Of a stretch of DNA of 64,000 nucleotides, positions 1 to 42,420 are shown in pieces (within the stretch, counting starts at the first letter, position 1; every line of letters starts with the position of its first letter). This DNA is from Fibrobacter sp. (GTDB lineage Bacteria > Fibrobacterota > Fibrobacteria > Fibrobacterales > Fibrobacteraceae): positions 1 through 64,000 of the forward strand of contig JAFPWY010000004.1 in the NCBI GenBank assembly GCA_017412605.1, in the 5' to 3' direction. The position numbers were made by a program, and so were the translations under genes. A model generated the notes under the pieces. That model did no database searches. It saw only the letters and a program-made list of their open reading frames with translations, and was not told the origin of the DNA.

Positions 1-83
1 ATTTAGCGATTTCGCCGTAAGGCGGAACCCGAAGGGCAAAAGCTGAGTGAAACGAAGGTTTTGTCCATCTCGCTATTCTCGAT

Positions 84-108
84 AAAAAGCCTCCGCAGGG
101 GGCTTTTT
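84..108. terminator. Bidirectional rho-independent terminator
   Basis: A GCCTCC / GGGGGC stem (89-94 with 98-103, one G-U pair) has an A-run on its left and a T-run on its right. It can therefore end transcripts from both sides. It lies 55 bases past the stop of the minus-strand Rpn gene. Bases 1-80 to its left show no convincing gene; at most the last codons of an off-window gene could end near base 47. Confidence 0.65.
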
Positions 109-162
109 GTATCGGAATATCATGCGAGATGAGAACTCACGTAGAGTCAGCTTTCGTGTTTT

Positions 163-1146
163 TCAGGGCTTCAGTGCGAGAAGTTCCGCTTCTGTGATGT
201 TCATTTTCTTGGCAATGCGTTTCACGAAAAGCTTCATCTTCTTTTCGCTATTCGCCTGCTCTTGCAAAATGCCTTCTTCGCGACCTTCTTCACGACCTAT
301 TTTTCGGCCTTCTCGGCGTCCGGCTGCCTTAGCCATGCGCTTGGCGTCGGCGATGCTGACGAACCCCATCCGCTGTCCAATGCTCTTGAATGCCATAGTC
401 ATCTCCTTGACCAGGTCCTGGTCGACGTACGATTCTAAATATAACTCTATTTTCTTCACAACGGTAGCCCTTGTGTCGTTGTCGAGCTTGTCGAGTAGCG
501 AGTTCAGGATGGTTCCCGCACCGCGGAGCCCGTCGGGGTCGTAGGCGTGCTTCATCACCAGCGTGCCGATGGCGGCTACCGCATTGTCCGCGTCGTTGCA
601 GTCCGTGTCGCGTATGTCCGAGAGGTTCACCATCACGCATTCGAACGGGAGGTCACCCCCGTTGAATTCCGCAAACCGATTCTTCCTGAAGTCCGCGACG
701 GGATCCCAGTCGGTCTTCCCGTTGTAGATGATGATGGCCTTCGTGGGGAGCCACATGAAGTCGGAACGGCTCTTGTTCACCATCACCTCGAAAACGTAGC
801 GGTAGATCTGCGCGAGCACGTCATCCTTCCTGACGGACTTGTGTTCGAGTAAAATCCCCACGAACGCATCGGGGCCGCCCGTGAGCGACTTCGCCTTGAA
901 CGCGAGGTCGGCCTCGCCCTGTTCGCCCACAGAACTGAACCTGCCGGGGATGGGCTCCAGGCTTTCCATGTCGACATTCGAGAGCATCCTGCGGAGGGCC
1001 GGGGTCCTGCGCTGCGCGAGCCGCAATAGCGCGCTCGTGTTTTCTGGAATGCTGTAAATATAGCGGAAGAACGGGTCGTGCTTGCGGCGCGTTGTCTTCG
1101 CCTTGACGGTCGCTTTGACCACCTTTTTTGTTGTCTTTCTTGCCAT
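163..1146 (-). CDS. Rpn family PD-(D/E)XK nuclease / putative transposase
   Basis: The product is about 327 residues and belongs to the Rpn (recombination-promoting nuclease, Transposase_31-like) group. After a basic N-terminus comes HDPFFRYIYS, typical of the family. The nuclease core shows the acidic residue in EADLAFKAK followed by the Glu-x-Lys step in LLEHKS. The C-terminal third is helical and charged, with a REGRKIGREEGREEG stretch, as in other Rpn proteins. I start at the ATG at 1146, behind an AAAGGGC box; the open frame runs on to 1419 but that extension translates an upstream repeat. Family members are reported to act as DNA endonucleases that raise RecA-independent recombination; activity here is inferred. 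The upstream region carries the two-hairpin element shared with the Rpn gene at 41509. Confidence 0.85.
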   Translation of the reverse strand: MARKTTKKVVKATVKAKTTRRKHDPFFRYIYSIPENTSALLRLAQRRTPALRRMLSNVDMESLEPIPGRFSSVGEQGEADLAFKAKSLTGGPDAFVGILLEHKSVRKDDVLAQIYRYVFEVMVNKSRSDFMWLPTKAIIIYNGKTDWDPVADFRKNRFAEFNGGDLPFECVMVNLSDIRDTDCNDADNAVAAIGTLVMKHAYDPDGLRGAGTILNSLLDKLDNDTRATVVKKIELYLESYVDQDLVKEMTMAFKSIGQRMGFVSIADAKRMAKAAGRREGRKIGREEGREEGILQEQANSEKKMKLFVKRIAKKMNITEAELLALKP

Positions 1147-1205
1147 GTTGCCCTTTGCCCGCATGCGGGCATGCCTGGATGCGGGTACGCCCCCGTTGGC
1201 GGACA

Positions 1206-1236
1206 GGGGACAGTCCCCCGTCTGCATGTATAGACG
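1206..1236 (-). promoter_or_regulatory. Two-hairpin leader element upstream of Rpn gene (copy 1)
   Basis: Two adjacent inverted repeats lie 60-90 bases before the Rpn start: CGTCT/AGACG (1219-1223 with 1232-1236) and GGGGAC/GTCCCC (1206-1211 with 1213-1218). Read in the gene direction the order is CGTCTATA, four bases, CAGACG, then the GGGGAC palindrome. The same order stands before the Rpn gene at 41509 with different bases in the second stem, so pairing is kept. It could be an RNA leader, an operator or a recombination site; I cannot tell which. Confidence 0.55.
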
Positions 1237-1365
1237 TTTTTGCGGGGAAAATTTTCCGGGAATTTGAGGCAAAAAGATGTTTTCGCCGAGCAAAAAAAGG
1301 TTCACAGGTGGTTTTCTGTTTATACAGAAAAAGGCAACCTTAATGCAAAGGGCCGCCCGAGGTAT

Positions 1366-1396
1366 AAAAAATCGGGCCGGCTTCACCGGCCTTTTT
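1366..1396 (-). terminator. Terminator of FSU lipoprotein gene
   Basis: A GGCCGG / CCGGCC stem (1375-1380 with 1386-1391) is flanked by an A-run on the left, which is the T-run for the minus strand, and by CTTTTT on the right. It follows the lipoprotein stop at 1421 and can work in both directions. The twin copy is at 3697-3725. Confidence 0.75.
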
Positions 1397-1420
1397 GGAG
1401 GGGGCTTGGCGGTTGGCAAC

Positions 1421-2620
1421 CTAGTCCTTAAGGCAACGAACAGAGAACCCGAGGTCCTTGTAGTCGATGTTCAGGCGCGCACAGTCGTAGCCGTAGTTCA
1501 AGTACATGTAGTACGCGTCGTTGCTATAGTTCTCCGTAGAACTCCAGAAGAGCGCTTCGTAGCCCTCGCCGTAGAAAACCCCATAGTAGTCCCTGTTGCC
1601 AGCAGGCAACGCCGAGAAGGAATAGGAATCCGAGCCATTGCCGCTTGTCCCATCATCCTTATCATTCCAGCCTCTCATGGACTTGAGCATTATTCCTGCG
1701 GTTGCTTTTCCCCCTACTGCAGTGAACAGGGCGTTCCATTCCGTGATATCGGGCAGGTGCCAGCCCTCAGGGCAAATGCCGCGCACCGGATTTGTCGGCG
1801 AGCATTTTATATTATAGCCGCACCTCATGCCGTTCGTGCTCCACGTTCCCACGCTGTCCATCGCGGCAGCCCAGGTGTAGAGGCGACCGTATTTGGCACA
1901 GTTGGCAGCATCATTGTCATAGCACCAGCTAGTGGAATCGGAGGTATAGCTGCTATATTTAAAGGGAACGTCTGTGTATGCGTAGTTCAGGTTTTCCGCC
2001 ATCCACCACTGTTCACCGATTTTCACCGTCTTGTAAGTCTGTCCGTCCCTGTCGTCCGTCAGGGTGCCATATTCGCAGTTGTCCTCAGTCTCGGTTTTAC
2101 AAGGCAAAGCCACAGAACTCGATGAGCTGTTTTTTTCATCTGAACTACTAGACTTGCCATCTTTACTGCTGCTGGACGTTTTTACCGCGCTAGAACTTGA
2201 CCGTGATTTGTCGCTGCTGCTAGAGTCACTTGCCTTATTAGAACTAGACTTCGCTTTTGCGCTTGACGAAGACTTTTTCTCCGAGTCCGGCTGAATCGCC
2301 TTAGTCAACGAATCATCAACGACCCAGAGCCCCTTCTTACAGACATAGGCTGTATCCTCGTCTTCCACATAGGCTGTCTTGCCGTTGCGATCCCCTGTGC
2401 AAGCAGACAAGTCGTCGAAAGAGGGAACAACCGCATCGACTTTCTCGCCAGATTCAGCATCCTTGGCAGAGTCGGAGTCCTTGTCCAGAATCGATTCCGT
2501 CAAGGAATCATCGGCAAGTTCAGTGTCCCTGGCGGGGTCGGTTCCCTTGCTGTCGCCACCACAGGCCGCAAGCGCAAGCAACAAGGCCCACAAAGCAAGA
2601 CCTACAAAGAAACGACTCAT
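1421..2620 (-). CDS. FSU-domain lipoprotein, single domain
   Basis: A 399-residue predicted lipoprotein. Residues 1-20 are a signal peptide with lipobox LALAAC (Cys20). A segment near residue 70 contains TAYVEDEDTAYVC, then a Ser-rich linker covers about residues 110-170. The rest is one Fib_succ_major domain with GEQWWMAENLNY, GRLYTWAAAMDS, CPEGWHLPDITEWN, FWSSTE and a final SVRCLKD. The start follows an AAGGGGG ribosome-binding site. It is the shorter paralogue of the gene at 3793-5847, and codons around 1487-1600 differ from it in a striking pattern described in the findings. The job of this domain family is not known to me; surface display or ligand binding is a reasonable inference from the lipid anchor and the flexible linker. 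Confidence 0.9.
   Translation of the reverse strand: MSRFFVGLALWALLLALAACGGDSKGTDPARDTELADDSLTESILDKDSDSAKDAESGEKVDAVVPSFDDLSACTGDRNGKTAYVEDEDTAYVCKKGLWVVDDSLTKAIQPDSEKKSSSSAKAKSSSNKASDSSSSDKSRSSSSAVKTSSSSKDGKSSSSDEKNSSSSSVALPCKTETEDNCEYGTLTDDRDGQTYKTVKIGEQWWMAENLNYAYTDVPFKYSSYTSDSTSWCYDNDAANCAKYGRLYTWAAAMDSVGTWSTNGMRCGYNIKCSPTNPVRGICPEGWHLPDITEWNALFTAVGGKATAGIMLKSMRGWNDKDDGTSGNGSDSYSFSALPAGNRDYYGVFYGEGYEALFWSSTENYSNDAYYMYLNYGYDCARLNIDYKDLGFSVRCLKD
1487..1600 (-). other. Hypervariable 38-codon segment, copy A
   Basis: This C-terminal part of the FSU domain aligns without gaps to 3859-3972 and 4609-4722. Variable codons here include AAC, GAC, TAC, TAT, GTT, GGC and CTC, alternating with invariant ones such as GGG, TTC TGG AGT and GCG TAC. 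Differences sit almost only at codon positions 1 and 2, and there is no purely synonymous change among the three copies. Confidence 0.8.
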
Positions 2621-2649
2621 GATACCCCCTTGGTGACACTCATTCGGAA

Positions 2650-2677
2650 AATATACACTTTTTCAATGCATCGTCAA
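2650..2677 (-). promoter_or_regulatory. Promoter of FSU lipoprotein gene
   Basis: In gene sense, TTGACG (2677-2672), a 16-base spacer and TATATT (2655-2650) make a good sigma-70-type promoter about 30 bases before the start codon. The duplicate gene has TTGACT, 17 bases and TAGATT in the same place. Confidence 0.6.
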
Positions 2678-2684
2678 CCTGAAT

Positions 2685-2770
2685 AGATTGCTTCGGGACT
2701 GTTCGTCCCTCGCAATAACAAGGAGCGGCCTTTTTTAAAAGGAGATCCCCGGCCAAGCCGGGGATGACAG
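2685..2770. repeat. Two dispersed repeats: GATTGCTTCG and GATCCCCGG palindromes
   Basis: Left part (2685-2719): GATTGCTTCGGGAC ... GTCCCTCGCAATAAC, an imperfect palindrome (family B). Right part (2739-2770): GGAGATCCCCGG, CCAAG, CCGGGGATGACA (family A). Both recur at 5925-6066, and single copies occur inside coding genes: family A in tilS and an ABC ATPase gene, family B in sufD. Confidence 0.8.
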
Positions 2771-2834
2771 GTTGGGTGGAGGCGGGGATGACAGGGATGG
2801 GACGCGGGGATGACATACCGCTCAGGCGCCACGC

Positions 2835-3116
2835 TTATCTTTTGAACAAATCAGAGTGCGTTCCGGTATCCACGAGCGTAAGCGTCAGAATCCCCCTGTT
2901 TTTTCTGTAACACAGAAGCCAGTCGGGATGTATATGAAGCTCCCGCGTTCCCGAAAATTTTCCAGTCAATTCGTGGTCTCGGTATTTTTCGTCTAGAACC
3001 TGATCCGTCCGAAGCAACTCTACAACTGTCTTAAGTTCTTCTAATGGGAGACCTCGCTTTTTGCAAAGCTTGTACCCCTTCTTGAAACGACTCGTCCAAA
3101 TGACTTCGTAAATCAT
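2835..3116 (-). CDS. YafQ/RelE-like toxin of a type II toxin-antitoxin pair
   Basis: 93 residues that match the YafQ branch of the RelE/ParE fold: a basic helical first half (FKKGYKLCKKRGLPLEEL), then ELTGKFSGTRELHIHPDWLLCYRK and a TGTHSDLF ending. In YafQ the His residues and the C-terminal Phe region contribute to ribosome-dependent mRNA cleavage; matching residues are visible (HIHPDW, THSDLF). The gene follows the antitoxin with a 4-base ATGA overlap, so the two are translated together. Function is inferred from these family features. Confidence 0.9.
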   Translation of the reverse strand: MIYEVIWTSRFKKGYKLCKKRGLPLEELKTVVELLRTDQVLDEKYRDHELTGKFSGTRELHIHPDWLLCYRKNRGILTLTLVDTGTHSDLFKR

Positions 3117-3385
3117 TTATCCAAATCCGCCCACATCTCGTCCATGTCCGTATAGCGTTTGGTCTTCGGGTCCGCTTCAAGGCGTTTCGCCTCTTCGACA
3201 GCCTCGAGAAGTTCGCAGGAACGATCCGGGTACTTGACTTCGAAGGGGAGCCCTCGCTGCAAAACCACCTGCCGCAGGAACATGGAAATCGCCTGAGACA
3301 TCGAAAGTCCCAGCCCTTCAAGGAGGGCGTTGGCTTGATTGTTCAGTTCGGAATCAATGCGGAAATTTTTAGCTATGGTACTCAT
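3113..3385 (-). CDS. RelB/DinJ-like antitoxin
   Basis: A 90-residue antitoxin with an N-terminal ribbon-helix-helix (NFRIDSELNNQANALLEGLGLSMSQAISMFLRQVV) and an acidic tail that would cover the toxin. I start at the ATG at 3385; the frame continues to 3472 but those codons are not antitoxin-like, and the operator palindrome covers the chosen start. DinJ-type antitoxins bind DNA alone and together with YafQ to repress their own operon. The next gene, overlapping by 4 bases, is the YafQ-like toxin. Confidence 0.9.
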   Translation of the reverse strand: MSTIAKNFRIDSELNNQANALLEGLGLSMSQAISMFLRQVVLQRGLPFEVKYPDRSCELLEAVEEAKRLEADPKTKRYTDMDEMWADLDK

Positions 3386-3390
3386 AGCTA
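3370..3390. promoter_or_regulatory. Putative autoregulatory operator of the toxin-antitoxin operon
   Basis: A perfect inverted repeat, TAGCTATG (3370-3377), 5 bases, CATAGCTA (3383-3390), spans the antitoxin start codon. A second one, CAAGCA TT TGCTTG (3419-3432), lies about 35 bases upstream. Ribbon-helix-helix antitoxins bind such short palindromes, so these are the obvious candidates for autorepression. Confidence 0.55.
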
Positions 3391-3535
3391 TAAATATATA
3401 TTGTTTCGCTTGCAGATACAAGCATTTGCTTGCAAATACTTTCAGTTTTATAATGGATAGTTTCATATACATCTTACCCGAAGAGTATTCCCATATCTAT
3501 TTCCGGTTTTTGTGCGGCGGCCCCGCACGGCAAAT

Positions 3536-3737
3536 GGGGACAGTCCCCCGTCTGCATGTATAGACGTTTATGCGGGGAAATTTTTCCGAGGTTTTAAGGT
3601 AAAAAGATGTTTTCGGCGGGCAAAAAAGTTTCACAGGTGGTTTTCTGTTTATACAGAAAAAGGCAGCCTTAATGCAAAGGGCCGCCTGAAGTATAAAAAT
3701 CGGGCCGGCTTCGCCGGCCTTTTTTGGAGGGGGCTTG
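3536..3737. repeat. About 200-bp direct repeat, copy 2, without an Rpn gene
   Basis: Near-identical to 1206-1408, including the two-hairpin element (GGGGAC/GTCCCC at 3536-3548, CGTCT/AGACG at 3549-3566) and the GGCCGGC/GCCGGCC terminator of the neighbouring FSU gene (3703-3719). Unlike copy 1 it is not followed by an Rpn gene: the DNA to the left goes straight into the toxin-antitoxin region. The 408 bases between 3385 and 3793 hold only this repeat, the toxin-antitoxin upstream region and a hairpin. Confidence 0.85.
3697..3725 (-). terminator. Terminator of the two-domain FSU lipoprotein gene
   Basis: A GGCCGGC, TTC, GCCGGCC stem (3703-3709 with 3713-3719) has an A-run on the left and a T-run on the right, so it can act on both strands. 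It stands about 70 bases past the stop codon at 3793. Confidence 0.75.
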
Positions 3738-3757
3738 CGCGCACGCGCGCTAGCCCC

Positions 3758-3789
3758 GCTCGCTCTAGCGGCAAGCCGCTTAGGCGAGC
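3758..3789. other. Imperfect hairpin directly after the stop codon of the two-domain FSU gene
   Basis: Two 15-base arms (3758-3772 and 3775-3789), 12 of 15 positions paired, with a 2-base loop. The structure starts 3 bases past the stop codon and is followed by a GCGCGCACGCGCGC tract (3738-3750). The paralogue at 1421 has only a small GGTT/AACC stem here. It is not needed as a terminator, because a strong one follows. Confidence 0.5.
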
Positions 3790-3792
3790 CTG

Positions 3793-5847
3793 CTAGTCCC
3801 TAAGGCAACGAACAGAGTACCCGTAGTACTTGATGGTGCCGTACAGGTACGGAGTGTCGTTGTTGTAGCCCAAGCCCATGTGGTACGCGCCGTCGCTACC
3901 GTCCTCCGTAGAACTCCAGAAGTCCGCGTTGCTGCCCTCGTCGTAGAAATTCCCATTGATGCTCCTGTCGCCAGCAGGCAACGCCGAGAAGGAATAGGCG
4001 TCCGAGCCATTGCCATTGCTGATCCAGCCTTCCGTGGACTTTAGCATTATTCCTACGGTTCTTTTTCCCCCTACCGCATCGAACAGGGCGTTCCATTCCG
4101 TAATATCGGGCAGGTGCCAGCCTTCAGGGCAAATGCCGCGCACCGGATTTGTCGGCGAGCATACCATATAATAGCCGCAACCCATGCCGTTCGTGCTCCA
4201 CGTTCCCACACTGTCCATTGCGGCAGCCCAGGTGTAGAGGCGACCGTATTTGGCACAGTTGGCAGCATCATTGTCATAGCACCAGCTAGTGGAATCGGAG
4301 GTGATATCACCAACTTTAAAGGGAACGCCTGTGTAAGCATAGTTCAAATTCTCTGCCATCCACCACTGTTCACCGATTTTCACAGTCTTGTAAGTCTGTC
4401 CGTCCCTGTCGTCAGTCAGGGTGCCATATTCGCAGTTGTCTTCTGTATCGATTTTGCAACCTAGAGGGACCGCAGAACTCGATGAGCTGTTTTTTTCTGA
4501 ACTACTAGATTTATCGTTTGATGACATTTTCTCCGAGTCCGGTCCATAGTCCTTAAGGCACCGAACTGAGAACCCTTTGAGCTTGAAGTCGTTGAACAGG
4601 TACGCATCGTCGTCGTAGTCCAATTTCACGTAGTACGCGTAGTAGCTATCGTACTCCGTATAACTCCAGAAGTACGCGCCGTAGCCCTCGATGTAGAAAT
4701 TCCCATTGTAGTACCTGAGGCCAGCAGACAACGCCGAGAAGGAATAGGCGTCCGAGCCATTGCCGCTTGTCCCATCATCCTTATCATTCCAGCCTTCAGT
4801 GGACTTGAGCATTATTCCTGCGGTTCTTTTTCCCCCAACCGCATCGAACAGGGCGTTCCATTCCTTGATATTGGGCAGGAGCCAGCCTTCAGGGCATACA
4901 CCACGAACTTTGACGTGGTTGAGGTTGCAGTCTTTCCCAACGCCGCAACCATTGGCCGAATTACCAGGAATAATACCAGCGCTATCCATTGCAGCACTCC
5001 ACAAGTACAAGCGGCCATATTTAGCGCAATTAGCGGGGTCATCATTATAGCAATAGCTGGAAGAGTCTTCATCCGCGGTCTGCTGAATATATCTATAGTT
5101 CAAATTTTCCGCCATCCACCACTGTTTGCCGATTTTCACAGTCTTGTAAGTCTGTCCGTCCCTGTCGTCCGTCAGGGTGCCATATTCGCAGTTGTCCCCA
5201 GCCTCGGTTTTGCAAGGTGAAGCTACAGAAACTGTAGGGACCACAGAACTCGATGAGCTGTTTTTTTCACCTGAACTGCTTGACTTGCCATCTTTACTGC
5301 TACTTGATTTGGCATTGCTACCAGAATCACTTGCCTTACTAGAACTTGACTCCGCTTTTGCGCTTGACGATGACTTTTTCTCCGAGTCCGGCCGAACCGC
5401 CTTAGTCAACGAATCGTCAACGGCCCAGAGCCCCTTTTTACAGACATAGGCAGAATCCTCGTCTTCCACATAAGCAGTCTTGCCGTTGCGATCCCCTGTG
5501 CAAGCAGGCAAGTCGTCGAAAGTGGTAACAACTGTATCGACATTCTCGCCAGGTTCTGCATCCTTGGCAGAGTCGGAGTCCTTGTTCTGAATCGATTCCG
5601 TCAAGGAATCATTGGCTGTCCAGCGCTTGCTTTCGCAGACATAGGCCTTCTTCTCATCTTCCACATAAGCGGTCGAGCCTTCTCGCTTGTCCGTACAGAC
5701 GGTCAAGTCGTCGTAGGTGGAAACGACGGTGTCGACCATTTCGGCAAGTTCTGCGTCCTTGGGGTCGGTTCCCTTGCTGTCGCCACCGCAGGCCGCAAGC
5801 GCAAGCAACAAGGCCCACAAAGCAAGACCTACAAAGAAACGACTCAT
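3793..5847 (-). CDS. FSU-domain lipoprotein, two tandem domains
   Basis: 684 residues. The signal peptide is identical to that of the 1421 paralogue (lipobox LALAAC, Cys20). Two copies of a short module follow, each with TAYVEDE and AYVC, then a Ser-rich linker to about residue 205. A first Fib_succ_major domain covers about residues 215-440, a second Ser-rich spacer about 445-465, and a second FSU domain runs to the end. Each domain has the GKQWW or GEQWW motif, GRLY, CPEGW and a terminal SVRCL. The second domain is more like the single domain of the 1421 gene than like its own partner outside the variable segment, which points to domain duplication plus gene conversion. Ligand or partner unknown. 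Confidence 0.9.
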   Translation of the reverse strand: MSRFFVGLALWALLLALAACGGDSKGTDPKDAELAEMVDTVVSTYDDLTVCTDKREGSTAYVEDEKKAYVCESKRWTANDSLTESIQNKDSDSAKDAEPGENVDTVVTTFDDLPACTGDRNGKTAYVEDEDSAYVCKKGLWAVDDSLTKAVRPDSEKKSSSSAKAESSSSKASDSGSNAKSSSSKDGKSSSSGEKNSSSSSVVPTVSVASPCKTEAGDNCEYGTLTDDRDGQTYKTVKIGKQWWMAENLNYRYIQQTADEDSSSYCYNDDPANCAKYGRLYLWSAAMDSAGIIPGNSANGCGVGKDCNLNHVKVRGVCPEGWLLPNIKEWNALFDAVGGKRTAGIMLKSTEGWNDKDDGTSGNGSDAYSFSALSAGLRYYNGNFYIEGYGAYFWSYTEYDSYYAYYVKLDYDDDAYLFNDFKLKGFSVRCLKDYGPDSEKMSSNDKSSSSEKNSSSSSAVPLGCKIDTEDNCEYGTLTDDRDGQTYKTVKIGEQWWMAENLNYAYTGVPFKVGDITSDSTSWCYDNDAANCAKYGRLYTWAAAMDSVGTWSTNGMGCGYYMVCSPTNPVRGICPEGWHLPDITEWNALFDAVGGKRTVGIMLKSTEGWISNGNGSDAYSFSALPAGDRSINGNFYDEGSNADFWSSTEDGSDGAYHMGLGYNNDTPYLYGTIKYYGYSVRCLRD
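3859..3972 (-). other. Hypervariable 38-codon segment, copy B
   Basis: Located at the C-terminal end of the second FSU domain. Compared with copy A, codons such as GAC, AGC, ATC, AAT and GGC replace AAC, GAC, TAC, TAT and GGC at the same positions. Where copy A has a T-ending codon (positions 6, 8, 25 of the segment) this copy also ends in T. Confidence 0.8.
4609..4722 (-). other. Hypervariable 38-codon segment, copy C
   Basis: Located at the end of the first FSU domain of the two-domain protein. It aligns gap-free to copies A and B. Two of its codons (AAA at position 33, and GGC at position 15 against GAA in copy A) belong to the only two positions that break the conserved-third-base rule. 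Confidence 0.75.
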
Positions 5848-5876
5848 GATACCCCCTTGGCGACACTCATTCGGGA

Positions 5877-5905
5877 AATCTACACTTTTTTCAATGCATA
5901 GTCAA
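5877..5905 (-). promoter_or_regulatory. Promoter of the two-domain FSU lipoprotein gene
   Basis: TTGACT (5905-5900), a 17-base spacer and TAGATT (5882-5877) in gene sense. The position matches the promoter of the paralogue at 2650-2677, but the -10 box differs by one base (TAGATT against TATATT), so strength may differ. Confidence 0.55.
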
Positions 5906-5924
5906 CCTGAATAGATTGCTTCGG

Positions 5925-6066
5925 GACTGTTGGTCCCTCGCAATAACAAGGAGCGGCCTTTTTTAAAAGGAGATCCCCGGCCAAGCCGGGGATGACAATG
6001 TGAGTGTATCGCAGGGATGACAATGTGAATGAAAAATGAAATCCCCGACCAAGTCGGGGATGACAA
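5925..6066. repeat. Array of dispersed palindromic repeats
   Basis: It holds one family B copy (from 5925), one family A copy (5968-5998) almost identical to those at 2685-2770, and a second, diverged family A copy (6040-6065, ATCCCCGAC ... GTCGGGGATGACA). Fragments ending in GGGATGACA lie between and after them. The array fills the space before the convergent end of serA. Confidence 0.75.
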
Positions 6067-6092
6067 AGGAATGCGCCGGGGATGGCACAGCC

Positions 6093-7259
6093 TTAGAAAT
6101 GAATCACGCGGACCTTGATGACCTTGTCGAGCTTGCCGAGCTTTTCGATGATGGAGTCATCGACCTTGCTTTCGACGTCAACGAGGTTGTAGCCGATTTT
6201 GCCGTTGCTCTTGTTGCTGAACGAGGCAATGTTGATGCCTTCGGCACCGAACACCTTCGTGATTTCGGAGATCATGTTCGGGACGTCCTGGTTGATGACC
6301 ACGACGCGGCTCTTGACGCCGGCGTGCGGGTGATCAACGAGGGCCGGGAAGTTCACGGAATTGCGGACGCAACCGTATTCGATGTAGTCCTTCAATTCTT
6401 CGACGGCCATCACGGCGCAGTTTTCTTCGGCTTCTTCGGTGGAAGCGCCGAGGTGCGGGAAGCAGGTCACCTTGTCGTTCTTGATGAGGTCAGCATCCGG
6501 GAAATCGCAGAGGTAGCCCTGGAGGGAACCGGAAGCGAGCATTTCGTTGACCGGGGCCATCTCGACGATACCGCCACGGGCGAAGTTCATGATGTAGCTG
6601 CCCTTGAAGCCGGCGAGGTTCTTGCGGTTCAGGAGGTTTTCGGTCACGCCCTTGATGAACGGAACGTGAACGGTGAGGAAGTCGGACTTGGCGATGACTT
6701 CTTCGAGCGTAGCCGTTTCAACCTTGTTCGAAAGTTCGTGCATGTTGGCGGCGTTCGGATACGGTTCGTAAGCGAGAACGCGCATGTTCTTCCAACGGGC
6801 ATAGTTGGCAACGAGCACACCAATCTTGCCGAGGCCAATCACGCCGAGCGTCTTGCCAGCGAGTTCCATACCGGCAAACTTCTTCTTGCCGCTTTCGACG
6901 GTCTTGGCGAGGTCCGGATCGTTCACGTCGAGGCTCTTGACCCAAGCAGCGGCCTTATCCACGTTACGGACGGCCATGCCGAGCACGGTCATCACGAGCT
7001 CGGCAACGGCGTTGGCGTTTGCACCCGGAGTGTTGAACACGCAGATGCCCTTCGCGGAGGCCTTGTCGATGGTGATGTTGTTCACGCCAGCGCCGGCGCG
7101 GGCGACAGCCAGCAGGCCGTCGAAGTTATCGGTATCAACCTGAGCGGAACGCACCAAGATGGCATCCGGATTTTCGACAGAGTCGGAAACCTGGTAGAAC
7201 GAGCCAAACAGGCTCAAGCCTTTCTTGGAAATGTTGTTCATCGTCTTAATAGTTGCCAT
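6093..7259 (-). CDS. serA: D-3-phosphoglycerate dehydrogenase
   Basis: 388 residues; NAD-dependent oxidation of 3-phosphoglycerate, the first step of serine synthesis. A Rossmann motif is visible in VIGLGKIG. The substrate-side catalytic residues of the D-2-hydroxyacid dehydrogenase family lie in NFARGGIV (Arg) and FPHLGAS (His). A C-terminal ACT-type domain (about residues 318-388, starting at SRVVVINQDVPNMISEI) would allow serine feedback. There is no large intervening domain, so it is the short type with an ACT tail. An AGAGGAC ribosome-binding site precedes the start. It reads alone, with repeats on both sides. Confidence 0.95.
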   Translation of the reverse strand: MATIKTMNNISKKGLSLFGSFYQVSDSVENPDAILVRSAQVDTDNFDGLLAVARAGAGVNNITIDKASAKGICVFNTPGANANAVAELVMTVLGMAVRNVDKAAAWVKSLDVNDPDLAKTVESGKKKFAGMELAGKTLGVIGLGKIGVLVANYARWKNMRVLAYEPYPNAANMHELSNKVETATLEEVIAKSDFLTVHVPFIKGVTENLLNRKNLAGFKGSYIMNFARGGIVEMAPVNEMLASGSLQGYLCDFPDADLIKNDKVTCFPHLGASTEEAEENCAVMAVEELKDYIEYGCVRNSVNFPALVDHPHAGVKSRVVVINQDVPNMISEITKVFGAEGINIASFSNKSNGKIGYNLVDVESKVDDSIIEKLGKLDKVIKVRVIHF

Positions 7260-7282
7260 TGTATTGTCCTCTTATGGATGAT

Positions 7283-7388
7283 TGTTAAAATGATTGATGA
7301 TTGATAATGTATGATTGATGATTATTCAATTTGGCGGCGTAGCCGCGATTATAACAATTATTCATTATCAATTATCCATTATCAATTC
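7283..7388. repeat. AT-rich repeat block with central GC palindrome
   Basis: Repeated ATGATTGATGATT and ATTGATAATG units on the left face ATTCATTATCAATT units on the right, so the arms are loosely inverted. The middle holds GGCGGC GTA GCCGC. The block lies between the end of ispG and the start of serA. The central hairpin could help end the ispG transcript. Confidence 0.5.
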
Positions 7389-7389
7389 T

Positions 7390-9129
7390 CTAAGGTTCTT
7401 GCCATCTGCCTCTTTCTTTTATCAAATTCACGAGTTCCTCGATGGCGTCTTCTTCGGGGATATTCTTCTTGACCGCCGTCTTGCCTTCGAACAGCGTAAT
7501 GCGGCCGGGGCCACCGCCCACGTAGCCGAAGTCGGCGTCCGCCATCTCGCCCGGGCCGTTCACGATGCAGCCCATGATGCCGATGGAGATGTCCGAGAGG
7601 TGGCCGAAGCGGGCCTTGATCTTGCCCATCACCTGCTGGATGTCGTACAAGGTACGTCCGCAGCTCGGGCAGCTGATAAAGTTCGTCTTGCTGCGACGGC
7701 AGTAGGCTGCCTGCAAGATGTCGAATGCCAAAAGCACGGATTCCTTGGCGCCCTTGTAGCCGTCGATAACGACGGCATCGCCAAGACCGTCGGTCACGAG
7801 GCTTCCAATGTCGGCGGAAACGCGGAGCGTTTCGGTTTCGTTGTCATTAATCTTCGCGTAGAGCAAAATCGGGTCTTGGCGACCTGCCGCATCCAATGCG
7901 GCAGCAAGGGCGCGCACGCCGGAAACCATCTCCGGGCCGGTGTAGCAGAATACGGAACCTGCAGGAACGGCGGAAGGATTCTGGGCGAAGCCCGCGATAT
8001 CCATCGCGTCCTTGAATTCCACGATCGGCTTCTCGTTCAAGCTCGGGAGCGCGAATTCCGCGTTGCGGCGTTCGCCGGTGAGCGCAATCGCGTCGGCCTT
8101 CACGCCGACCTTCACCGGGCTGTTGCCGCCAATCTCCACGCCGGAGACCTTCACGGCCTCGGTAGCGCGGCGTTCGTAATGGTACGGGTCCTTCTCGAAG
8201 ACCGGCACGTTGTAAGCAGTCGGAGCAGCGGGAAGCGCACAGGCCTTGATGAGTTCCTGCGCCACCGGGACTTCGGCCACCGGATCCTCGGTAAGCGAAA
8301 CGCGAATCGTATCGGCAAGGCCATCGAGCAAAAGCGCACCGATGCCCGCCGCAGACTTGAGTCGCCCGTCGGCACCGGCTCCGGCCTCGGTCACGCCCAC
8401 GTGGAACGGATACGGCTTGAAGCCTTCCTGCTTGATGCGGGCGGCGAGCATGCGGTAAGCGGCAATCGCCACGCGGGGATTGCTGCTCTTCAAACTTAGA
8501 ACAACCTGGTCAAAATGTTCCGCCTCGCACACGGCCAGGTATTCCATGGCGCTTTCCACCATGCCTTCCACCGTGTCGCCGTAGCGGTAAATCATGCGGG
8601 CCGAGAGCGAACCGTGGTTCACGCCAATACGGATGGCGCGTCCCAGACGCTTGGCCTCCTGGACGAACGGCGTGAAAGCCTCGGCGACCTTCTCCTTGCC
8701 TTCGTCGAACATCTTGTCCGTCTGGTTCTCGAGCGTGAGGATGCCCGTATCCACAAAGTTACCCGGATTGATGCGGACCTTCTCGACCCACTTGAGCGCC
8801 TCGAACGCGGCCTTCGGCTGGAAATGGATGTCGGCGGAAACCGGCACCTTGCAACCCGCGGCACGGACTTGCTTCATCACTTCTTCAAGGCCCTGCGCAT
8901 CGGCAAAAGTCGGAGCGGTAATGCGAACCAGGCCACACCCCACCTTGGCGAGCGCCAAAGTCTCGGCCACCGTCTTCTCGACGTCCTTGGGCTTGGTGGT
9001 GGTCATGGACTGAACTAAAATGGGGGCGTTGCCCCCTATCAAAGCCTCGCCAACGCGGACTTGTACAGTTTCCCTGCGGACCGCATTGAAGCGGTCGGCT
9101 ACATACGGGAATTCGCTAAACTTGGTCAT
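7390..9129 (-). CDS. ispG: 4-hydroxy-3-methylbut-2-enyl diphosphate synthase (large form)
   Basis: 579 residues; makes HMBPP in the non-mevalonate isoprenoid pathway using a [4Fe-4S] cluster. The TIM-barrel half begins with GGNAPILVQSMTTTKP and contains VRINPGN. The C-terminal half has the cluster cysteines in SCPSCGRTLYD and GCIVNGPGE. At 579 residues it is much longer than the roughly 370-residue E. coli type and fits the large form with an insert between the halves, known from Bacteroidetes and Chlamydiae. It is followed on the same strand by serA, with a repeat block between them. Confidence 0.95.
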   Translation of the reverse strand: MTKFSEFPYVADRFNAVRRETVQVRVGEALIGGNAPILVQSMTTTKPKDVEKTVAETLALAKVGCGLVRITAPTFADAQGLEEVMKQVRAAGCKVPVSADIHFQPKAAFEALKWVEKVRINPGNFVDTGILTLENQTDKMFDEGKEKVAEAFTPFVQEAKRLGRAIRIGVNHGSLSARMIYRYGDTVEGMVESAMEYLAVCEAEHFDQVVLSLKSSNPRVAIAAYRMLAARIKQEGFKPYPFHVGVTEAGAGADGRLKSAAGIGALLLDGLADTIRVSLTEDPVAEVPVAQELIKACALPAAPTAYNVPVFEKDPYHYERRATEAVKVSGVEIGGNSPVKVGVKADAIALTGERRNAEFALPSLNEKPIVEFKDAMDIAGFAQNPSAVPAGSVFCYTGPEMVSGVRALAAALDAAGRQDPILLYAKINDNETETLRVSADIGSLVTDGLGDAVVIDGYKGAKESVLLAFDILQAAYCRRSKTNFISCPSCGRTLYDIQQVMGKIKARFGHLSDISIGIMGCIVNGPGEMADADFGYVGGGPGRITLFEGKTAVKKNIPEEDAIEELVNLIKERGRWQEP

Positions 9130-41508: not shown

Positions 41509-42420
41509 ATGATTCGAGAAGAATTCGCGCAGTTCCTCGGGAAACTGAGGGAAACGAGCAACAACGGCGGGGATATTGACGCATACGTCAAGGAGTACGA
41601 ACACAAAAACGTGTACTTCTACAACGACGGATGCATCAAGAAAATTCTCGCAAGCGAAAAGAACATCATGCTCACGACGGATCTCGTGAACGCGGCCCTG
41701 GGCCTCATCGGCTCCGACCGCATCATGAACCCGAAACTCGTAAACCCGTTCATCCCCGGGGAACTCGGCTACCGAAACGCAGAGCCGGACATTCTCCTGA
41801 CGAACAACCGCGATGGCGATACGCCTCGGGACCGAATATCTATCGAGGTTCAGCACGAAGACAAGAGAGTGTTTAGAGATCGCTTAGTCCTCTACGTGGC
41901 TCGTCTTACAAGCAACATGGCAAGGAAAGGGAAAGAGCCTCAACTCGAAAACCTGAACGTGATCGGATTCCAGTTCTTCAATGCGTTCCCCGAATCTGCA
42001 AACTACCGCCATACAGTACAGCTGCGCAATCAGGAACTGCAGGTCTATTTTGACCGGCAGACAGTAACACTGATTGAGGTGGAGAAATTCTTCAAGGATG
42101 CCGAACGTTTTGCGGACGACAGCAGCCGCCTTGCACAATGGCTCCGCGCCATCGATACCTTGAATCGAGAAGCCGATTTCAGCGAATTTGCAAACGACCC
42201 CATTTTCAGGCTATTGCAAAACGAGGTGAAATTATGTAATTTCAGTTCGAGGTATCTTATGACAGTAGACATGAGCGACTATGACAAAGCCATGGAACGC
42301 TATGAAGGAGCCATGGATAAAGCGGAAGAAATCGCAAAAGGGTTGCTGAAAGACGGTGTACCCATAGAAATTATCGTTCGAAATACCGGACTTTCGGAAA
42401 AGACAATTCGCGAGTTGTAA
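41509..42420 (+). CDS. Rpn-like PD-(D/E)XK nuclease family transposase
   Basis: 303 residues. Core motif EPDILLTNN (Asp) and RISIEVQHED (Glu-x-Gln) of the PD-(D/E)XK transposase-like group, in front of LTSNMARKGKEPQLENLNVIGF. The C-terminal helical part ends with LLKDGVPIEIIVRNTGLSEKTIREL-like sequence (last half conserved), found again in the pseudogene near 59227 and in the Rpn gene at 27751. A GGAAAAG box precedes the start. A two-hairpin element stands upstream and a clear terminator follows. Confidence 0.87.
   Translation: MIREEFAQFLGKLRETSNNGGDIDAYVKEYEHKNVYFYNDGCIKKILASEKNIMLTTDLVNAALGLIGSDRIMNPKLVNPFIPGELGYRNAEPDILLTNNRDGDTPRDRISIEVQHEDKRVFRDRLVLYVARLTSNMARKGKEPQLENLNVIGFQFFNAFPESANYRHTVQLRNQELQVYFDRQTVTLIEVEKFFKDAERFADDSSRLAQWLRAIDTLNREADFSEFANDPIFRLLQNEVKLCNFSSRYLMTVDMSDYDKAMERYEGAMDKAEEIAKGLLKDGVPIEIIVRNTGLSEKTIREL

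Follow-up and report, generated by a model that had tools for sequence, protein, structure and literature searches.

The first 64,000 nucleotides of contig JAFPWY010000004.1 of a Fibrobacter sp. genome (GCA_017412605.1), hereafter the window, carry near their start two minus-strand genes of the FISUMP (Fib_succ_major) family. The encoded proteins hold three FISUMP domains, d1, d2 and d3, and the C-terminal part of each is a stretch of unusual codon variation, the variable region (VR), whose possible origin from a diversity-generating retroelement (DGR) is the subject of this work. The genes and VRs are as follows (numbers beginning with G, L and C are our handles for genomes, loci and contigs).

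1421..2620, minus strand: FISUMP protein with a Ser-rich linker and one C-terminal domain, d1 (PF09603, E 1.2e-32; TIGR02145, E 9e-60)
1433..1618, minus strand: VR of d1, FSALPAG...SVRC, with adenine-type variable codons (codon alignment; cassette matched in G051)
3793..5847, minus strand: FISUMP paralogue with tandem domains, d3 then d2 in reading order (two PF09603/TIGR02145 stretches)
3805..3990, minus strand: VR of d2 (codon alignment and domain-pair comparison)
4558..4740, minus strand: VR of d3, one codon shorter (codon alignment and domain-pair comparison)

In both proteins the N-terminus carries a signal of lipoprotein type (LALAACGG, as read from the sequence itself), and both score above the curated cut-offs of the two family models (114 and 213 bits against 33.9 for PF09603; 202 and 386 bits against 41.65 for TIGR02145). 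To our knowledge, no function has been established for the FISUMP family. The AlphaFold model of d1 reached a mean pLDDT (predicted local distance difference test) of 95.9. Sequence searches of the PDB gave no match, and the best structure match was the C-terminal domain of Legionella Lcl, with a weak score (E 0.022, probability 0.97, TM 0.30/0.48). Further matches, also with weak scores, were a Bdellovibrio domain, a Bacteroides fimbrial protein and, lower down, a Thermus DGR variable protein. Taken from the model, these weak matches may point to C-type-lectin-like folds. The VR lies C-terminally within the FISUMP domain, which is a known DGR target domain (PMC4159848).

Codon pattern of the variable regions

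A sequence-only reading of this DNA had proposed DGR-type hypervariation from three 38-codon minus-strand segments (1487-1600, 3859-3972 and 4609-4722) that align without gaps. Our codon-by-codon recomputation reproduced its counts: 20 codons vary, none of them purely synonymously; 18 of the 20 share their third base in all copies and two, at positions 15 and 33, do not; the codons at positions 6, 8 and 25 vary but end in T throughout; and A is present in at least one copy at 31 of the 35 variable sites. Position 21 (TCT/TCT/TAT) is a fourth T-ending variable codon. Two further claims also held, namely that synonymous changes do occur outside the segments, being common upstream in the same domains (15-27 codons per pair), and that a preference for C-ending codons does not explain the pattern, such preference being weak (52-67% for Y, N, D, F and H) in the long open reading frames (ORFs) around these genes.

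The pattern proved to be wider than the 38 codons, covering about 186 bp per domain from FSALPAG to SVRC. Of the 52 ungapped codons in the extended stretch, 21 do not differ between the copies and 2 differ only synonymously; among the remainder, 25 retain their third base and 4 do not. Y, N, D, G and S are frequent among the variable residues, and the bases at the variable sites are poor in C (A 54, T 33, G 31 and C 8, that is, 8/126 for C). A copy with A was found at 36 of the 42 variable first and second sites, a fraction of 0.86, where a DGR spectrum would give 0.93 and uniform bases 0.60. Apart from the two exceptional codons, the changes keep to adenine-type positions with fixed third bases, as in a DGR VR and as judged from the copies themselves.

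The genome has 115 Fib_succ_major matches, and 95 domains whose C-terminal part is complete were aligned at codon level and compared in 4445 pairs. The median fraction of codons with an unchanged third base in the C-terminal segment was 0.29; the three window pairs scored 0.98, 0.93 and 0.91 and occupied ranks 1-3. Fisher tests of the VR versus the upstream part of the same three pairs returned p = 2e-7, 1e-9 and 8e-7. In a simulation of mutation and selection in which amino-acid change was free at the variable codons, synonymous changes averaged 19 (minimum 10) and third-base-conserved codons reached 16 at most, as compared with the observed 0 and 27/28 for d1 and d2.

The same mark, at 0.78-0.86, was seen in a second FISUMP group made up of two domains on contig C8, one at the end of C1 and one at C1:187309. 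The domains at C1:154558 and C10:278192 group with the window domains at 0.72-0.84 and look as though they had been written earlier and had drifted since. In the 86 older paralogues the variable columns hold more Y-ending codons (0.65 versus 0.55) and more Y, N, D, G and S (0.46 versus 0.36), excesses that are weak and suggestive at most of a DGR trace. The sequence-only reading would have given up a DGR had all paralogues shown the usual third-position excess; the window group does not show it, and about 86 other domains are without a clear mark, so a mark common to all FISUMP domains was rejected. As an observation on the assembly, FISUMP genes are cut in complementary parts at the contig ends C8:17-298 and C1:364889-365206, which suggests that the break falls inside one FISUMP gene.

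DGR machinery in the genome and in the genus

The genome is assembled in 15 contigs and is 99.5% complete. No DGR-type reverse transcriptase (RT) was found in it, and a profile built from seven Fibrobacter DGR RTs matched only the gene of a DRT8 defence RT, and that weakly. The latter is the sole RT of the genome (C15:18926, within C15:18.5-20.8 kb; L001:1108-3410) and has a PD-(D/E)XK partner, with PADLOC matches to Drt8 (E 3.8e-150) and RTasPDDEXK (E 2e-53); it was rejected as writer of the VRs. A profile of the Avd-like protein of the genus had no match in this genome, and no template repeat (TR) was found in it either by the TR pattern with up to 3 mismatches or by DNA searches for a separate copy. 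As a possible template remnant we considered an isolated C-terminal piece of a FISUMP gene on C8 and rejected it, since it is no more than a short pseudogene end. Base 1 of the window is also base 1 of its contig, C3, which thus ends 1.4 kb beyond d1 on the downstream side, where the rest of a DGR would be expected. The 57 bases that open C3 also close C7 without a mismatch (C7:276374-276430), at a small inverted repeat, and the neighbouring contig is therefore most likely C7, which was also searched for the machinery.

Complete DGRs are present in sister species and served as a positive control. RTs of family PF00078 occur in 18 of 80 congeneric genomes, and many of these RTs bear the DGR motif GLPIGNLTSQ and are immediately preceded by an AAC-rich template that resembles FISUMP sequence. 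At an intact locus the order is a FISUMP lipoprotein with its VR, an Avd-like protein of 207-294 amino acids, the TR and the RT. The Avd-like protein had no Pfam match and is putatively so named because it sits between VR and TR. Cognate TR/VR pairs agree at 0.99-1.00 of the non-A sites versus about 0.53-0.75 of the A sites, in summary about 58%. Summed over the pairs listed, the changes from TR to VR were about 170 A to G, 127 A to T and 33 A to C, so that changes to G or T together outnumbered those to C about ninefold, and the VRs of the window show the same C-poor spectrum. A comparison of VR with VR within the intact DGR of G029 gave 35 identical codons, 4 synonymous, 26 nonsynonymous with the third base conserved and 1 other, the corresponding counts for the window being 32, 0, 26 and 1. 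Many non-A bases of the window are also found in the sister templates, which have AAT at two of the positions where the window has T-ending variable codons.

Two features of the sister RT loci deserve mention in their own right. At L063, L064, L067, L068 and L154 the TR is in frame with the downstream RT within one readable open frame, a putative TR-RT fusion ORF, for example of 487 amino acids in G011. A second type of RT (L071, L075, L076 and L077, from G061, G054, G067 and G020) carries VGGAIGFLxWQ in place of the SQ motif and has a different AAC-rich template upstream, for example RNNNNNAWNFNNNGNFNNNNFNN; as far as its sequence goes, it is possibly another DGR lineage.

DGRs in decay were found as well. 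RTs are broken in G003 and G024, and G031 retains an Avd with an in-frame stop and has no RT. Contig C1 of G037 holds a ghost DGR (L243:6220-6480) in which an Avd-like gene is followed by a TR with an intact first half, GNYNSNNKKFNNLGNNANFWSST, and, as its second half, the normal end of a FISUMP gene; an RT is missing. The window-type VR core occurs in 31 of the 80 genomes of the genus, and a DGR-type RT is absent in 23 of these 31 (among the 23 are 12 genomes with a completeness of 95% or more). The sequence-only reading had noted that RT and template were missing from the window; this absence extends to the whole genome, Avd included, but not to all of its relatives, some of which have both RT and template, contrary to what that reading had regarded as damaging to a DGR.

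The genes neighbouring the two FISUMP genes are not regarded as parts of the system, and a search for Rfam families had no match in window positions 1-8000.

163..1170, minus strand: Transposase_31 (YhgA/Rpn-like) gene (PF04754, E 7.3e-11), neighbour only
2835-3116, minus strand: YafQ toxin, between the two FISUMP genes (PF04221/PF15738 pair)
3113-3472, minus strand: RelB-like antitoxin, between the two FISUMP genes (PF04221/PF15738 pair)

The Transposase_31 gene, downstream of d1, occupies the place where a DGR would carry Avd, TR and RT. Genes for YhgA/Rpn-like (Transposase_31) and PD-(D/E)XK (PDDEXK_2) nucleases adjoin FISUMP genes at window positions 163-1170 and 41509-42420 and at L163:8331-9320, including next to the gene of G051 in which the d1 cassette recurs; a link of these genes to recombination is conceivable.

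Origin of the window copies

We consider it highly probable that the three segments are orphan, now dormant VRs of a Fibrobacter-type DGR that targets FISUMP lipoproteins with a putative C-type-lectin-like domain. The DGR-type hypervariation put forward from the sequence alone is supported as to its adenine-directed origin, since DGRs of the genus with FISUMP targets leave the same mark, C-poor spectrum included, and is not supported as to a DGR operating in this organism, whose genome is without RT, Avd and template and one of whose VR cassettes is nearly unchanged in another species. In the proposed mechanism, as in the intact systems of sister species, a TR beside an RT would be copied to cDNA with errors at the template adenines, and the cDNA would take the place of the homologous 3'-terminal part of a FISUMP gene, turning AAC/AAT codons into NNC/NNT and resetting all other bases, third positions included, to the template sequence. 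Such retrohoming would have written the window copies from one template lineage, after or during duplication; the template of a window-type VR would read GGCAACAGGAACAACAATGGGAATTTC...GCGAACTTCTGGAGTTCTACGGAGAACAATAGCAACAACGCG and lie beside an RT. The RT, Avd and template would later have been lost from the lineage, or would never have been resident, the written cassettes having come by recombination. The cassettes would now be inherited, duplicated and exchanged as fixed variants, in which ordinary synonymous changes build up slowly, and they may serve as a repertoire for ligand binding.

Several observations weigh against this reading. Adenine mutagenesis does not account for codons 15 and 33 (2 of 20) or for the C to A change at codon 21, for which ordinary mutation must be invoked. 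Several A-containing codons are invariant, which requires selection against change there. At non-A sites the window is moderately similar (0.57-0.80) to the templates that exist in sister species, and no template fitting the VR group of the window was found in 111 family genomes, GTDB species contigs or viral contigs; the writer of the window copies is therefore inferred and not seen.

The d1 cassette recurs in G051, where the last 330 bp or so differ at few sites, one of them an A-type change, amid different gene neighbours; upstream of the cassette the G051 gene is about 85% identical and locally unalignable. In the three cross-species pairs that were checked, a block of 240-330 bp around the VR is 98-100% identical and the flanks are about 85% identical or unalignable, and for six VR cores an identical copy is present in a second species. 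In the set of VR cores to which these six belong, C makes up 26 of 636 first- and second-position bases (invariant codons GGC and GCG excluded); the third-base counts of this set (codons 1, 2, 3, 5, 8 and 11) are partly selected for, the cores having been collected by a pattern search with up to 3 mismatches. The near-identity of hypervariable codons in two species argues that no rewriting has taken place after a cassette was shared, and is indirect evidence against ongoing variation at the population level. It is a version of our reading, with a chance only slightly short of even, that the diversity is secondhand, the cassettes having been made by DGRs elsewhere and brought by homologous recombination into a lineage that never had a DGR. 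The conserved blocks amid diverged flanks and the shared cores speak for it; the pairs were picked for identical VR cores, however, so no rate follows from them, the G062/G078 pair is about 98% alike throughout, and loss of a resident DGR fits equally well.

It is unlikely that an active DGR acts in trans from a replicon or contig outside the assembly, such as a plasmid, a prophage or a gap. The assembly does consist of 15 contigs, DGR RTs related to those of Fibrobacter occur on phages and plasmids of other bacteria, and the VRs of d1 and d2 are almost free of synonymous change since they were written. Nevertheless, the near-complete genome holds no remnant of RT, Avd or TR, the contig end by d1 appears to join the searched C7, the VR of d1 is nearly unchanged in another species, and most genomes with a window-type VR (the 23 of 31 above) are without a DGR RT.

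Gene conversion that shuffles variable codons among the roughly 115 FISUMP domains is very improbable as the source of the pattern. The paralogous family is large and block sharing between genes was observed, but conversion moves whole tracts and could not produce changes of one or two bases with fixed third bases, and most paralogues differ at third positions too; it may spread cassettes and would not create the pattern. Ordinary diversifying selection on binding residues combined with codon bias, with no special mutator, would suit the Y, N, D, G and S of the variable residues, as in binding sites, and the exceptions at codons 15 and 33, but it was rejected as the least credible explanation in view of the weak codon bias (52-67% C-ending), the simulation, which lies far from the data with at least 10 synonymous changes against 0, the T kept in T-ending variable codons and the usual divergence upstream in the same copies.

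Extending the reading of orphan VRs to the whole genus, we tentatively envisage a common pool in which a minority of strains carry a DGR and write FISUMP variants, and the finished cassettes of 250-330 bp spread between species by recombination and are kept frozen in strains without a DGR RT; the FISUMP family might then be, in part, a library of faded DGR products. With 115 matches here, FISUMP ranks among the largest families of paralogues in Fibrobacter, and a DGR origin of part of it would suggest that ligands are recognized in a variable manner on the cell surface of this bacterium, a major degrader of fibre in the rumen.

Comparison with known systems

Our literature search, which had incomplete coverage, found no paper on DGRs of Fibrobacter FISUMP genes. 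A global survey of DGRs included those of the FCB group, Fibrobacteres among them, and reported VRs enriched in nonsynonymous changes (PMC8144416, 2021). Detection in that survey depended on an RT lying no more than 20 kb from the repeat, and VRs without an RT, like those of the window, would therefore have gone uncounted. Orphan VRs indicate that what a DGR has written can persist after the DGR itself is gone, and can be duplicated and transferred from one species to another. Surveys that depend on a nearby RT (PMC8144416) would thus underestimate how far DGRs reach; our codon-pattern test detects such relics without a template.

The closest systems are the FISUMP DGRs of sister species (G011, G029, G037, G040, G070 and others), which share with the window the target domain, the C-terminal VR, the AAY-to-NNY changes and the C-poor spectrum; unlike the window genome, they have the Avd-like gene, the TR and the DGR-type RT. 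Fib_succ_major or DUF1566 domains have been described as targets of DGRs in human microbiomes (PMC4159848, 2014). These DGRs resemble the window in the Pfam target domain, the lipoprotein signal and the adenine substitutions, and differ from it in that the TR is present, in their source, which is human metagenomes and not Fibrobacter, and in that no single genome has a family of some 115 domains (PMC4159848).

Orphan VRs are already known in kind from Treponema denticola, in which isolates without the core DGR have orphan target genes, many of them for lipoproteins, that were read as remnants (PMC4891356, 2016). As in the window, the VR genes differ at adenine-type sites and the genomes are without RT and TR; the target and the phylum are others, and the VRs could be matched to templates of other isolates of the species (PMC4891356). 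The VRs of the window, in contrast, have no fitting template among those found, and their cassettes are common to different species, a sharing that may be new.

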